From Tribonema minus (lineage: Eukaryota > Sar > Xanthophyceae > Tribonematales > Tribonemataceae), in the NCBI GenBank assembly GCA_017506865.1, contig JAFCMP010000537.1, positions 248,001 through 312,000 of the forward strand: a stretch of 64,000 nucleotides of DNA, given 5' to 3'. The notes beneath the pieces were generated by a model. That model worked only from the letters and a program-made list of their open reading frames with translations, did no database searches and was not told the DNA's origin. The translations under genes were made by a program, and so were the position numbers. Positions 656 to 62,875 of the stretch are shown here, one piece after another; positions within the stretch are counted from its first letter, which is position 1, and each line of letters starts with the position of its first letter.

Positions 656-1840
656 TTATCGCGGGCCTCGAGATGGGATCGCTCAACAGGACCTACGATG
701 ACTCCACGGATGCATGGGGCAAGCTGATCCAGGACCCCTCTGGCGCCAAGCAGTTTGCCGCTAAGAGCGCCGCGGACAAGGCCAAGTCACAGCTGCAGGA
801 GATCAAGAACGGCCGCCTCGCCATGATCGCCATCATGGGTACGTATTGTTTGTGACCTTTCTTCAACTTGAAATGCCATTCAACTCCTATTCCGGTGAGA
901 TCAAGACGGCCGAGGCCATGATTGTCATCATGGGTACGTACTGTATGCTGATGTTCATGAAACTTCAACAATCAATAGCTGAAGATATGTTGTGACAAGT
1001 CACAGCAGGGAGATCAAGGACGGCCGCCTCGCCATCATGGGTACGTATGTATGCCGATGTTCATGTAACTTCAAGATGAAACAGTTGAAGATTTGTTGAG
1101 AAAATCAAGAGCGGCCGCCTCGCCATGATTGCCGTCATGGGCACGCATGCTCAGGCGTCATTCTTCGCATGTTATGGACTGAGTTGTGGGCCTGTGAGCA
1201 TACGAAGGGCACTATTACTGTTTCTAACTGACAAGGACAAGTTCAGCTGCAGGAGTTTCCCAATTGCTGTGTCGCACCATCATGGGTATGTATATGGACA
1301 TTTCTTCAACCTCAACAATCAGTCCTTTTGGCTGATAGTATTAGAGATGAAGAATGGCAGCAGTGAGTGCGTTTGTTGACTTGCCTCTTCGTACTGAAAA
1401 TCACTTGTGCTCTGCTGACGTGGTGTTACAAACAGACATCGAGTCTGCCCAGGGCACTTCTCAGACAGCATGCCTGGCAAGCAAGGCCAGGGATGGAACA
1501 GTGCCTGTTTACTTAAACTGCCGTGCTGTGATCTGATGATCATCATGCGTTTGAGGTGCTCGATGCTTGCATGCGTGTGCGCGATGATGCGTTCTTGTGC
1601 AGTACACTGTGCGCAGTTCACAAGTGTACTGCCACTGCAAGCAGTACCGCAGAGCACGCAGCAGACTCACAGTCCCCAAGGCAAGCTGACCGAGACAAGC
1701 CAACCCTAGCTTACACAATTGTTTTCGGCATTCTGAATTCAAATTCAAACACCCTCCCCCCCTTCCCCCGCCGCTGTGCACTGCCCCCCTTTGCAGGCAT
1801 GCTCATCCAGACTGCCCTCTTCGGCCACCCCCTGCCCTAA
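656..1840 (+). CDS. Light-harvesting chlorophyll-binding protein (LHC/FCP type), 3' part
   Basis: This is the C-terminal part of a thylakoid antenna protein of the LHC superfamily; the N-terminal part lies beyond the left edge or in undetected upstream exons. Two exons are supported: 656-838 and 1797-1840. The first follows a TGCAG acceptor and encodes the third transmembrane helix start, with the family hallmark E-I-K-N-G-R-L-A-M (Glu and Arg bridge the helices, Asn binds chlorophyll). It ends in a Gly codon split in phase 1 at a GTACGT donor. The last exon follows TTTGCAG, completes that Gly and gives GMLIQTALFGHPLP then TAA. The 958-bp intron between them carries five or six decayed copies of the exon end. 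I infer a plastid protein made in the cytosol; the subfamily (FCP, Lhcr, Lhcz) is not determinable from this part. Confidence 0.85.
897..1372 (+). repeat. Array of donor-junction echoes of the LHC exon
   Basis: Degraded copies of the exon end (GAGATCAAGAACGGCCGCCT...) plus the GGGTACGTA donor occur at about 897-937, 992-1047, 1100-1146 and 1231-1290, with a fainter one at 1340-1372. Several are followed by the same intron start, including a CTTCAAC motif. Copies carry small deletions that shift frame. All lie downstream of the true donor at 838. Confidence 0.85.
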
Positions 1841-61700: not shown

Positions 61701-62875
61701 ACAAGCCAGCTCATATCATCAGGAGCACGAGCACCTCTTGCTTTGTGAACCAACTTCCACTTTCCTCTGCACTCATAGAATGGCAACTTGACGATGATAT
61801 GATTCGACAGTTCTCTGTGGCATGGAACAAAGGATGGGTAGCATCTGCAATTGTGTGCATGCGCATCTGATTGCTTGAACTGCCATGTTAGAGTGCAGCT
61901 GCCGTGGTCAACTGAAGTTGGCGACACACTCTGGCGCACGAGGGTCCTTGTTAGCAGTGGTACAGCAGTGGTACTCCGATCCTATGGTGTGCACCTCTCT
62001 CCCGCAAAGTCAAGGGGCAGACAACGGTGCATAGCCCCAGTGTCAGAGCACTGCTGGTGAATCCGCAACAGCTGCAGCATGAAGCAAACACAGAACACAT
62101 GAAGATCTGAGAGCCACACAGCTAGGCCGCAGTGTGCTGGCAAGCACAAGATTTTTTGTGCAGCACCACCTGTGCACTAGAATCATGGTTGAACGGTTCA
62201 TTGTGCTTAACCAATTCACCTGAACAGGCCATCCTCTGTGTACAGGTCGACCTCCACAGTAGGGTTGCCCCTGGAATCGATGATCTCGCGGCCATGGATC
62301 TTGGTGATGGTGGCCTGAATGTTATCAAAGGATTGCACCAGTGAGAACGCAGCAGGAAAATGTGTACTGTACCGTTGAGTACTATGTATGGTGTGGGGCG
62401 GATCCAGACAAAAGCAGCAACCAAAGCACTGGACACGCGTCAAAGTTAGACAGCAAACAACACATACAAATCCAAACTAAGATCCTGGTTTTCAAGACTA
62501 CGCAGCCATGGCATTATACAAGAAATGCGAAATACTGCCTGAGGCAGGGTGACATCGCCTTTATCAGCACAGTAGCATTAGCAACAGCAATTGAACGTGT
62601 GATGCAGCAGGACCTCTCGCTCACCATAGACAGAGCAGACGATGATGAGCGCGTGGCGGCAGCCACCTTAGCTCCGATGAAAGGCGTGTGCACGAGTGCA
62701 TCGACGCTGGCGACGCCTGCACCAGGTCAAGCATCACGAGAGAGTGGTGGACACACAGCAAGTTTACATGTTGAATCTTGTGAGAAAAGCATGCATGCAC
62801 TGCACAGGGCGAGCCGCTCGTTTGCAAAGGTGCATTACCTGCCACGGCCAGCACTGCTGCGATGGAAATCTTCAT
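49787..62875 (-). CDS. ENO: Enolase (phosphopyruvate hydratase) with bipartite plastid-type presequence, 479 residues
   Basis: Converts 2-phosphoglycerate to phosphoenolpyruvate. Exons: 62875-62839, 62716-62625, 62314-62220, 61150-60979, 59544-59443, 58432-58310, 56813-56751, 55399-55244, 54568-54389, 53840-53691, 50696-50583 and 49942-49787. All phases agree; the total is 1440 nt. Catalytic residues by homology are His199 (E-H-A-G-N), Glu208, Glu251 (D-E-G-G-F), Lys387 (K-V-N-Q-I-G), His415 (S-H-R-S-G-E-T) and Lys438. Metal ligands are Asp286, Glu335 and Asp362. Residues 1 to about 19 ([19 protein letters not shown]) form a signal peptide, followed by a Ser/Ala/Arg-rich stretch to about residue 43. 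The enolase fold starts at [10 protein letters not shown]. Plastid import through the ER is inferred. The plant-type Trp-rich insert is missing. Intron 6 has a GC donor (CAG/GCAAGT). Nearly every exon has junction echoes. Confidence 0.97.
50450..50495 (-). repeat. ENO: Donor-junction echo of enolase exon 11
   Basis: In gene sense, GGGGAGACCGAGGACAACTA and CATTGCCGACATG/GTGAG repeat the exon end at 50583, with Leu changed to Met in the last codon. Confidence 0.85.
50783..50833 (-). repeat. ENO: Acceptor-junction echo of enolase exon 11, near copy
   Basis: In gene sense, GTGTGCAG/ATTGGCTC then ACAGAGTCTGTTGACGCAAT and GACCCTGGCCAAGCAG repeat the exon start at 50696, with a short deletion. Confidence 0.85.
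51862..51910 (-). repeat. ENO: Acceptor-junction echo of enolase exon 11, distant copy
   Basis: In gene sense, GAAATTGGCTCCATCACCGA and a decayed GCGACCCTGGCTGAGCAG. It lies 1.2 kb upstream of the exon and directly abuts the left end of the inverted-repeat element at 51911. Confidence 0.8.
51911..53225. mobile_element. Terminal-inverted-repeat element, about 1.3 kb, non-autonomous
   Basis: The ends are CAGGCGGGACGAGTA (51911-51925) and its exact reverse complement (53211-53225). Weaker matches extend inward to about 50 bp (GAGTAACTAGAGTA on both sides). The arms (about 51911-52200 and 52940-53225) are built of GAGTA/TACTC words; the core between them is unrelated sequence with no transposase-like frame. 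The flanks GCCAATTTCA (left) and GGCCAATTTGCA (right) look like an imperfect target duplication of about 10-12 bp. That would suit a Mutator-like element, but the family is not proven. It sits in enolase intron 10. Confidence 0.75.
53570..53640 (-). repeat. ENO: Donor-side echo of enolase exon 10
   Basis: In gene sense it copies AACCCCATCCGTATCAAGGA, GGCGGCGGACAAGGGCGCGT and GCAACGCGCTGCTGCTCAAG almost exactly, then loses the last codons and the donor. Confidence 0.85.
53884..54003 (-). repeat. ENO: Two acceptor-junction echoes of enolase exon 10
   Basis: In gene sense, CCCACTGTAG/GATGACTGGG and ACAGCTACACGGCCTTCACC at 54003-53960, plus a more decayed copy at 53925-53884. Both are upstream of the acceptor at 53840. 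Confidence 0.85.
54640..54856 (-). repeat. ENO: Two acceptor-junction echoes of enolase exon 9
   Basis: In gene sense, GCAG/GCGGTATTTGGTATGG then ATGTGGCATCATCCGAGTTC at 54720-54640. A weaker copy (GTTGTGTTTGATATCAATG) is at 54856-54790. The true acceptor is at 54568. Confidence 0.85.
55113..55155 (-). repeat. ENO: Donor-junction echo of enolase exon 8
   Basis: In gene sense, CTGGAGGCCTGCAAGAAGAG, a deletion, then GGGCAAG/GAGCGTCACATCTT, downstream of the donor at 55244. Confidence 0.8.
55503..55975 (-). repeat. ENO: Four acceptor-junction echoes of enolase exon 8
   Basis: In gene sense, TCAG/GTCTACCACGCCC and CAAGTCAGTCATCAAGGCC-type copies lie near 55540-55503, 55680-55620, 55812-55755 and 55975-55905. 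Each carries part of the exon (G-Q-D-A-C) and a GCAGTTACA intron word. Decay grows with distance from 55399. Confidence 0.9.
57137..57290 (+). repeat. Dispersed repeat of about 95 bp, copies 3 and 4 in tandem
   Basis: TATATGAAAACGAGTCAAAA... to GGAGTGGTTAGCCGCAAGTG, CCTTCCACCAATA, then a second, more diverged copy with the same order. It lies in enolase intron 6. Confidence 0.75.
58168..58212 (-). repeat. ENO: Donor-junction echo of enolase exon 6
   Basis: In gene sense, CGCTCTGCCTTTCTAGAAAA, TTCTGGGCAAATTCCGCAT repeats the exon 6 end and its GC-type donor region. The GC of the donor is kept. Confidence 0.7.
58304..58309 (-). other. ENO: GC-type 5' splice site of enolase intron 6
   Basis: The exon ends CAG and the intron begins GCAAGT, the standard form of a GC-AG intron. 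Protein continuity (A-L-A-F-Q/E-F-M-V-L-P) fixes the junction; no GT donor in phase fits. Confidence 0.85.
58515..58640 (-). repeat. ENO: Acceptor-junction echoes of enolase exon 6
   Basis: In gene sense, TTGCCTACAG/GGGGTGCCTC then TGTACCAGCACTTTGCAGAC at 58640-58580, nearly intact, and a shorter fragment near 58535-58515. The true acceptor is at 58432. Confidence 0.85.
58817..59320 (-). repeat. ENO: Donor-junction echoes of enolase exon 5
   Basis: In gene sense, copies of GGCGGGAGCACAGGCTAAG/GTCAGT lie near 59320-59293, 59255-59222, 59175-59145, 58985-58945 and 58850-58817. They become shorter and less similar downstream of the donor at 59443. Confidence 0.75.
59612..59955 (-). repeat. ENO: Four acceptor-junction echoes of enolase exon 5
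   Basis: In gene sense, TGTTCC(C/T)ACAG/CTGATGAACAA copies lie near 59650-59620, 59735-59703, 59870-59805 and 59950-59915. The third is the longest and includes GACCGCCAACAAGACCGAC, but three units separate or follow it in decayed form. Confidence 0.85.
60469..60512 (-). repeat. 45-bp hairpin element, copy 4
   Basis: In gene sense: GTACTTTTCATTGATTGTCG, TTGAGGGCGCGAAAGAGCCC. It lies in enolase intron 4, same orientation relative to the gene as the other three copies. Confidence 0.7.
60600..60850 (-). repeat. ENO: Two donor-junction echoes of enolase exon 4
   Basis: A short copy (AGGGACGTTGACGAG/GTGATG) at 60848-60825. A long, nearly intact one at 60670-60600 encodes [15 protein letters not shown] before GTTAGG. 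The true donor is at 60979. Confidence 0.9.
61266..61556 (-). repeat. ENO: Acceptor-junction echoes of enolase exon 4
   Basis: In gene sense, GTGCAG/GGCATCTGTCTCCTCTGG and CGCGAGCACGGGCGTATATG at 61335-61266, with a shorter copy at 61395-61365. Flanking intron sequence (GTCAGCA.ATGGGC, GAGCACTGTCACAG) is duplicated with a period of about 240 bp up to 61556. Confidence 0.85.

Follow-up and report, generated by a model that had tools for sequence, protein, structure and literature searches.

In amphioxus (Branchiostoma), tandem duplications of exon-intron boundaries have been described as mirages, with degenerate repeats lying inside the intron and repeat units of 10-72 bp in Adh3 and 150-160 bp in the globin genes; many of these repeats, not all, retain AG or GT, regular splicing is undisturbed, copy numbers differ between haplotypes, and a link to intron gain has been proposed (PMC3087553). 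In the excerpts of that report considered here, mirages are known for a few genes of an animal and are possibly more general in cephalochordates. This study examined a 64,000-nucleotide stretch of the genome of the alga Tribonema minus (contig JAFCMP010000537.1, positions 248,001 to 312,000; hereafter the window), in whose introns copies of the neighboring exon edge, carrying its splice site, lie next to that edge. These copies, referred to here as junction echoes, suggest that Tribonema minus introns grow partly by repeated tandem duplication of segments spanning the exon-intron junction, with the exon-proximal splice site kept in use and the extra copies drifting as intron (probability of roughly 0.78).

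As far as the excerpted account of mirages goes, the Tribonema echoes are the same structure: the repeat unit spans the exon-intron boundary (58 of 58 copies lie at the matching exon edge in the five genes described below), both 5' and 3' exon boundaries are affected (20 acceptor-side and 38 donor-side copies), the splice-site dinucleotides are mostly kept (80 of 89 echoes), and normal splicing persists, as seen here at the RNA level for enolase only. Concerted evolution within the array, a further feature of mirages, may be reflected in some arrays, which are alike across the junction; most are not. What is new is the lineage and the scale: mirages concern few genes of an animal, whereas echoes occur in a stramenopile alga at 33 of 74 junctions and, in a wider set, at 50 of 150 exon edges, the former being beyond anything claimed for amphioxus in the same excerpts. 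The initial annotation of this DNA knew of no described precedent, a statement that gives way to the amphioxus case; a report of junction echoes in an alga or in Tribonema was not found among the listed titles and abstract openings of open-licence papers searched.

Two other routes by which introns acquire sequence were compared. In Rogers-type gain, a known route in which an exonic AGGT segment is tandemly duplicated, duplicated exon sequence turns intronic, as it does in echoes; unlike this route as outlined in the portions of PMC4974935 and PMC2891723 considered, the echo-bearing intron pre-exists and the unit spans its junction. The signature expected if the intron itself were an exon copy (sequence of the upstream exon end no more than 20 bp from the acceptor, or of the downstream exon start no more than 20 bp from the donor; E<=0.01) was present in 0 of 37 introns. 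The enolase paralogues seem to differ in intron positions, as such gains would allow, and very old gains could have faded below detection; with the signature in none of the introns, this origin is highly improbable and was set aside. Introners are dispersed copies of one element and, like echoes, add intron sequence across a genome; unlike introners, echoes are private copies of the neighboring exon edge, as judged on their exon-derived parts in within-gene comparisons. Introner elements were rejected because non-adjacent introns of the same gene gave 0 direct matches.

Position of junction echoes relative to exons

The assembly comprises 158.2 Mb in 554 contigs, in which the window is G000:C534:248001-312000. 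Exon calls were first fixed by reading frame and then checked, so as to be independent of the echoes. The gene models in the window are as follows:

Enolase gene, 49787..62875, minus strand, 12 exons, matching the transcriptome-derived protein P0002 at 478/479 residues
Enolase exons 1-6, minus strand: 62875-62839, 62716-62625, 62314-62220, 61150-60979, 59544-59443, 58432-58310
Enolase exons 7-12, minus strand: 56813-56751, 55399-55244, 54568-54389, 53840-53691, 50696-50583, 49942-49787
USP7-like gene (MATH and ubiquitin hydrolase), 39952..49288, plus strand, 9 exons, 559/559 to Tribonema minus protein P0121
USP7-like exons 1-5, plus strand: 39952-40119, 40409-40618, 41247-41455, 41700-41812, 43325-43514
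USP7-like exons 6-9, plus strand: 45370-45493, 46943-47152, 48059-48222, 48997-49288 (with stop)
LHC-like gene, last two exons, plus strand: 656-838, 1797-1841, on the basis of reading frame only
EF-hand-like gene, 12370..17996, plus strand, six exons identified by eye that form a single open frame
EF-hand-like exons, plus strand: 12370-12542, 13474-13677, 14376-14535, 15946-16107, 16990-17065, 17815-17996

The spliced enolase product is 100% identical to P0002 (EukProt), and the spliced alignment of P0002 to the window gives the same exon boundaries; its last exon stops before the stop codon, which the window model takes in. Named relatives of this enolase at 75-83% include Phaeothamnion, Chrysoparadoxa and brown algae. 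For the USP7-like gene, the public model starts 39 bases upstream of the frame-based one (39952 vs 39991), and the frame-based last exon overshot the stop by 16 bases. The gene at 656..1841 is presumably a member of the LHC family, and the EF-hand-like name is likewise tentative, being taken from a motif, with no database match.

Proteins P0036 and P0037 of Tribonema minus served to model two enolase paralogues, located on C554 and C45. Both models lack first exons, probably because the sequence stretches used end too early; 7 of 9 and 12 of 14 predicted exons were kept, the first kept exon of each being trimmed to its 3' part. The paralogue and USP7-like models are public predictions. Together with the enolase, USP7-like and LHC-like genes of the window, the paralogues form a five-gene set of 37 introns, 36,145 bp and 74 junctions, with exons checked against proteins in four genes and by reading frame in one.

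A self-BLAST of the window, with 2.9-11.9 kb left out, returned 115 direct vs 9 inverted repeat pairs, and 111 of the 115 direct pairs lay within 1 kb of each other. When the exons of the enolase, USP7-like and LHC-like genes were compared with their own genes (BLAST, E<=0.01), all 35 direct matches fell in the adjacent intron, counting one upstream of LHC exon 656-838, the first of that gene in the window, with copies of the 5' part of an exon upstream of it and copies of the 3' part downstream. Only two matches departed from this rule, both inverted and from a G-rich run. In the five-gene set, where each exon was compared with every intron of its own gene (E<=1e-3 for a 2-Mb search space), 58 of 58 direct matches were in the adjacent intron, 20 upstream on the acceptor side and 38 downstream on the donor side; all 58 were nearer the matching exon edge, 56 of them within 15 bp of it. 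Non-adjacent exon-intron pairs, amounting to 304,419 bp in the same genes, gave 0 direct matches and a single inverted one, again from a G-rich run.

These counts bear out the polarity rule that donor copies lie only after the used donor and acceptor copies only before the used acceptor, none of the 58 being on the wrong side; the rule is partly built in, because an extra exon-edge copy outside the intron would be in the protein. The EF-hand-like gene agrees, with 4 of 4 matches obeying the rule and 4 of 10 junctions bearing echoes. A strict count for the window alone gives 26 echo-bearing boundaries, which upholds the initial estimate of more than 25: 21 of the 40 junctions of three genes, 4 of the 10 junctions of the EF-hand-like gene, and the acceptor of the LHC exon that starts at 656. 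That all six genes of the window carry echoes holds for the four genes checked, and in the minus-strand gene region at 20-35 kb arrays of the same kind were seen by eye only. Overall, the observation of junction echoes in Tribonema minus introns is confirmed.

An assembly artefact or low-complexity sequence would be another source of such repeats, given that tandem repeats are commonly misassembled and that two inverted matches came from a G-rich run. Misassembly, however, would yield near-identical copies regardless of exons, whereas most copies differ from the exon by ~3-25% with private changes and are found on many contigs under a strict positional rule; assembly error was rejected on these grounds and is given very little credence. 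The echoes in the window, with their percent identities, are:

LHC exon 656, acceptor echo, 485..536, plus strand (self-BLAST 485-536, 92%; exon BLAST 495-536, 95%)
LHC exon end 838, three donor echoes, 897-933, 996-1038, 1104-1140, plus strand, 82-92%
EF-hand exon 2, acceptor echo, 13401..13427, plus strand, 85%, within a longer array 12904-13508
EF-hand exon 3, donor echo, 14670..14716, plus strand, 87%
EF-hand exon 4, donor echo, 16209..16258, plus strand, 92%
EF-hand exon 5, weak donor-side echo, 17174..17205, plus strand, 81%
USP7 exon 3, acceptor echo, 41098..41184, plus strand, 91%
USP7 exon 3, donor echo, 41480..41541, plus strand, 81%
USP7 exon 4, three donor echoes, 41888-41937, 42018-42070, 42146-42194, plus strand, 92-96%
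USP7 exon 5, two donor echoes, 43586-43660, 43754-43806, plus strand, 92-93%
USP7 exon 6, two donor echoes, 45606-45649, 45807-45847, plus strand, 80%
USP7 exon 7, acceptor echo, 46808..46874, plus strand, 90%
USP7 exon 7, donor echo, 47317..47372, plus strand, 77%
USP7 exon 8, donor echo, 48352..48421, plus strand, 91%
Enolase exon 11, donor echo, 50451..50486, minus strand, 92%
Enolase exon 11, acceptor echo, 50783..50829, minus strand, 79%; older echo 51863-51906, 75%
Enolase exon 10, donor-side echo, 53578..53637, minus strand, 97%, without the last 9 exon bases and the donor
Enolase exon 10, acceptor echo, 53958..53992, minus strand, 97%
Enolase exon 9, two acceptor echoes, 54635-54708, 54806-54852, minus strand, 84% and 79%
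Enolase exon 8, donor-side echo, 55131..55153, minus strand, 23 bp, 100%, ending 14 bp before the edge
Enolase exon 8, three acceptor echoes, 55493..55809, minus strand, 81-85%; further fragments 55908-55943, 56201-56226
Enolase exon 6, acceptor echo, 58593..58633, minus strand, 90%
Enolase exon 5, donor echo, 59228..59248, minus strand, 21 bp, 95%
Enolase exon 5, acceptor echo, 59806..59844, minus strand, 90%
Enolase exon 4, donor echo, 60615..60675, minus strand, 92%
Enolase exon 4, acceptor echo, 61268..61328, minus strand, 89%

Several further observations were made. At 34714-35128 (minus strand), about four 110-bp copies, ~92% identical, form a young tandem array in an unnamed gene; the array resembles a junction with a GC donor that was copied downstream. 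Intron positions seem to vary among the three enolase genes: a 219-bp exon of the C554 gene is as long as the 63- and 156-bp window exons combined, and exons are shorter and more numerous in the C45 gene. An exon scan based on codon usage was too insensitive, recovering 1 of 9 USP7-like exons and 9 of 12 exons of enolase, its own training set. Between 11.8 and 39.9 kb there were 203 stop-free frames of at least 58 codons, 176 of which were aligned as sets of 93 and 83; a Pfam scan of the 83-frame set gave two weak single-frame matches, which were taken as chance.

Array anatomy, splice-site use and divergence

The stacked copies are tandem units running from the exon through the splice site into the intron. 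The median distance between neighboring copies is 148 bp (quartiles 126-185, range 74-1077); the exon-derived portion of an echo has a median length of 53 bp, and an edge carries 1 to 7 copies that pass the filter. At one C5 donor, nine rows are stacked including the used one, the eight echoes being 75-95% identical and one of them lacking GT. In total, GT or GC is kept in 44 of 48 donor echoes and AG in 36 of 41 acceptor echoes, leaving out 5 copies that fall short of the junction. The splice scores of echoes are somewhat below those of used sites (donor 3.29 vs 4.09, acceptor 3.46 vs 4.34). The transcriptome-derived enolase protein uses exon-proximal sites only and includes no echo, in this one gene, and the public USP7-like model (P0121) takes in none either. 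Combined, these results support the proposal of the initial annotation that duplication across a splice site leaves the exon-proximal site in use while the extra copies become intron and decay; neither of the two outcomes named there as refuting it was seen, the use of echoes as exons (as judged in enolase only) or copies on the wrong side of junctions. Two GC-AG introns were noted, at the donor of enolase intron 6 (58310) and at C279b core 4 (C279 near 806 kb); the used GC donors are followed by AAG or GAG, and the C279b donor is itself echoed.

Introns with echoes are longer (n=26, median 1043 bp) than those without (n=11, median 672 bp; p=0.016). The spans from junction to farthest echo amount to 10,644 of 36,145 intron bp (29%), which is a lower bound because old copies fade. 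The suggestion of the initial annotation that introns grow mainly in this way goes further than the measured share.

Exon-echo mismatches occur at 7.6, 5.1 and 16.8% of codon positions 1, 2 and 3. Use of the echo as coding sequence is not the source of this pattern, since the 27 of 89 echoes that are frameshifted share it (8.1, 5.9 and 15.0%). In 20 arrays with at least two echoes, changes private to the exon number 2, 0 and 13 at the three positions, and changes private to a single echo 55, 45 and 85, indicating that the exon evolves at silent sites and the echoes at all positions. Changes on the exon side account for part of the codon-position pattern.

An octamer, AACTTCAA/TTGAAGTT, occurs 66 times in the window vs 2.3 expected (e.g., 16118-16131, 34836-34966, 41827-41851) and is nearly absent from exons, with a single exonic match across the five-gene set. 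The core, CTTCAA/TTGAAG, clusters at intron starts, where the initial 50 bp contain 19 of its 79 matches across the 37 introns, and is denser inside echo arrays (2.9 vs 1.4 per kb in the three window genes). The octamer is possibly an intronic splicing signal. Interstitial telomere-like TTAGGG runs were also present (4927-4986, 5828-5857, 17499, 21055, 26762, 45513 and others), with 30 overlapping two-unit matches where none are expected; these are scattered, and the window is far from any contig end.

Echoes beyond the window and the focus on exon edges

The positional rule extends to chaperonin genes outside the window. Chaperonin exons were located with a Pfam search, whose 56 matches fall in ten multi-exon loci, and all ten loci were used; 52 matches served as exon cores, and four were dropped before counting as apparent echoes of a stronger neighbor, each of them sitting on the side of its exon that the rule predicts. 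When the cores were compared with their own loci (E<=1e-3), 77 of 77 direct matches by hand count were adjacent and nearer the matching edge, where adjacent means between neighboring listed cores, some exons being missing. One inverted match was non-adjacent. Core edges are profile-based, were set by an automatic rule (with the acceptor of C51 core 3 shifted by hand) and may be off by a few bases. Echoes reaching the junction were found at 6 of 6 edges in C51, 7 of 14 in C135 and 1 of 12 in C235a. With the three window genes added, 50 of 150 exon edges bear such echoes, in 94 copies; this set overlaps the five-gene set, and 5 of its 150 edges are outer ends of window genes, which were counted and not searched.

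An alternative is that tandem duplication proceeds at an even rate genome-wide and that constrained exons merely keep their copies recognizable. The concentration at edges would then be an artefact of detection, and the polarity would arise since a copy on the opposite side would form part of the coding sequence. The polarity rule is indeed largely automatic; by reasoning, an exon and its echo are expected to diverge about half as fast as two intron copies and would stay visible longer; and arrays away from splice sites do exist, in eno introns 6, 7 and 10 and eno45 intron 3. Repeats were therefore also scored on intron sequence only, giving 109 direct pairs less than 700 bp apart vs 9 inverted. 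In introns of at least 500 bp, 28 of 34 such arrays lay within 100 bp of a splice site vs 9.8 by random placement. With exon-like stretches masked, the figure was 27 of 31 vs 8.3 expected (p<=5e-5, the floor of 20,000 shuffles), and repeat coverage was 16-24% of bases within 600 bp of a junction vs 7% beyond. This comparison is confined to introns, and BLAST masking may have missed some old remnants of exons. Within introns, exon edges are thus where duplication, or the survival of its products, is concentrated, and an even rate appears unlikely. Among the few intron arrays that are not exon-anchored is a short dispersed repeat, in tandem at 57133-57290 in enolase intron 6 and once at 30077-30153, with 91% identity.

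Mechanism and significance

The process proposed for Tribonema minus would begin with local tandem duplication, repeated, of segments spanning the exon-intron junction (spacing mostly 100-220 bp). The copy that completes the reading frame would be the exon-proximal one, which stays in use; as the nearest acceptor-donor pair spans a short exon, exon definition, the pairing of acceptor and donor across that exon, would be the natural selector of the proximal site. Surplus copies would pass into the intron, retaining GT or AG for a time before drifting. The exon, kept clean by selection, may act as a lasting source of homology beside its own copies, with slippage or unequal exchange adding further copies at the same place; this would account for arrays staying at exon edges with no need of a dedicated enzyme. 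The copies themselves, their place and polarity, the tandem arrays, the retained dinucleotides, the drift into frameshift and the clustering of repeats at splice sites are directly observed.

Several results weigh against this account or limit its reach. No echo is detected at 41 of 74 junctions in the five genes, and three of the ten chaperonin genes (C235b, C511 and C279a) have no junction-reaching echoes; these lie at C235 871-877k, C511 165-169k and C279 41-46k, two of them without any match. The expected decay with distance from the exon is seen when pairs of copies are compared, the nearer copy being more exon-like in 60 pairs and the reverse in 23 (ties 2), and falls to p=0.063 when tested per edge over 22 edges; greater likeness of nearer copies is a tendency only. 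The 97%-identical copy of enolase exon 10 that lacks the junction implies that some events depart from a clean tandem unit. The third-position excess remains in the echoes, even in the most exon-like copies (7/6/15), and in-frame stops occur in 1 of 58 ungapped echoes vs 6.1 expected. In 71 of 75 pairs of echoes, the exon-derived side is the more alike (mean 0.835, vs 0.659 for the intron-derived side and 0.538 for an unrelated control), a difference not predicted by simple neutral drift of a single tandem unit; indels are far commoner on the intron-derived side. Choosing echoes by exon similarity biases this comparison, by an amount judged, without simulation, too small to explain the gap; gene conversion from the exon, copies from diverged alleles or faster turnover of intron-type sequence could each contribute.

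The scarcity of stops, the better conserved exon-derived parts and the retained splice dinucleotides would also fit echoes that are functional, kept by selection as alternative or regulatory splice sites or as poison exons. The frameshifted echoes speak against such a role, as their codon-position pattern is like that of unshifted ones, and an echo of one edge has a single splice site, so that its use would retain intron sequence in the message. Neither the enolase protein nor the USP7-like model contains an echo, and by a rough estimate drift alone, at this level of divergence, would preserve about as many of the dinucleotides. Selection for function is accordingly thought improbable. Growth by junction duplication may also be taken further, with exon edges as permanent duplication seeds, re-templated by the clean exon, that form the main source of intron length genome-wide, the interiors of long introns being old, faded junction copies; this wider version is put forward tentatively and is rather less probable than its opposite.

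The origin of intron length is poorly known outside transposon-rich genomes. In Tribonema minus, a third to nearly half of the examined junctions are echoed, which makes it unusually easy to study how introns grow and how splice sites are chosen. With the exon as a fixed reference, every copy records a single growth event, with an orientation and a rough date, and individual introns could yield rates of duplication, drift and loss. Additionally, the echo arrays are a natural experiment on splice-site choice, as displayed by the eight copies behind one C5 donor, most with an intact donor; the use of exon-proximal sites only is what exon definition predicts, and is seen in enolase, the one gene with RNA-derived sequence. 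If echoes are general in yellow-green algae, the structure described in amphioxus would represent a way in which introns have grown repeatedly, and not an oddity confined to an animal.

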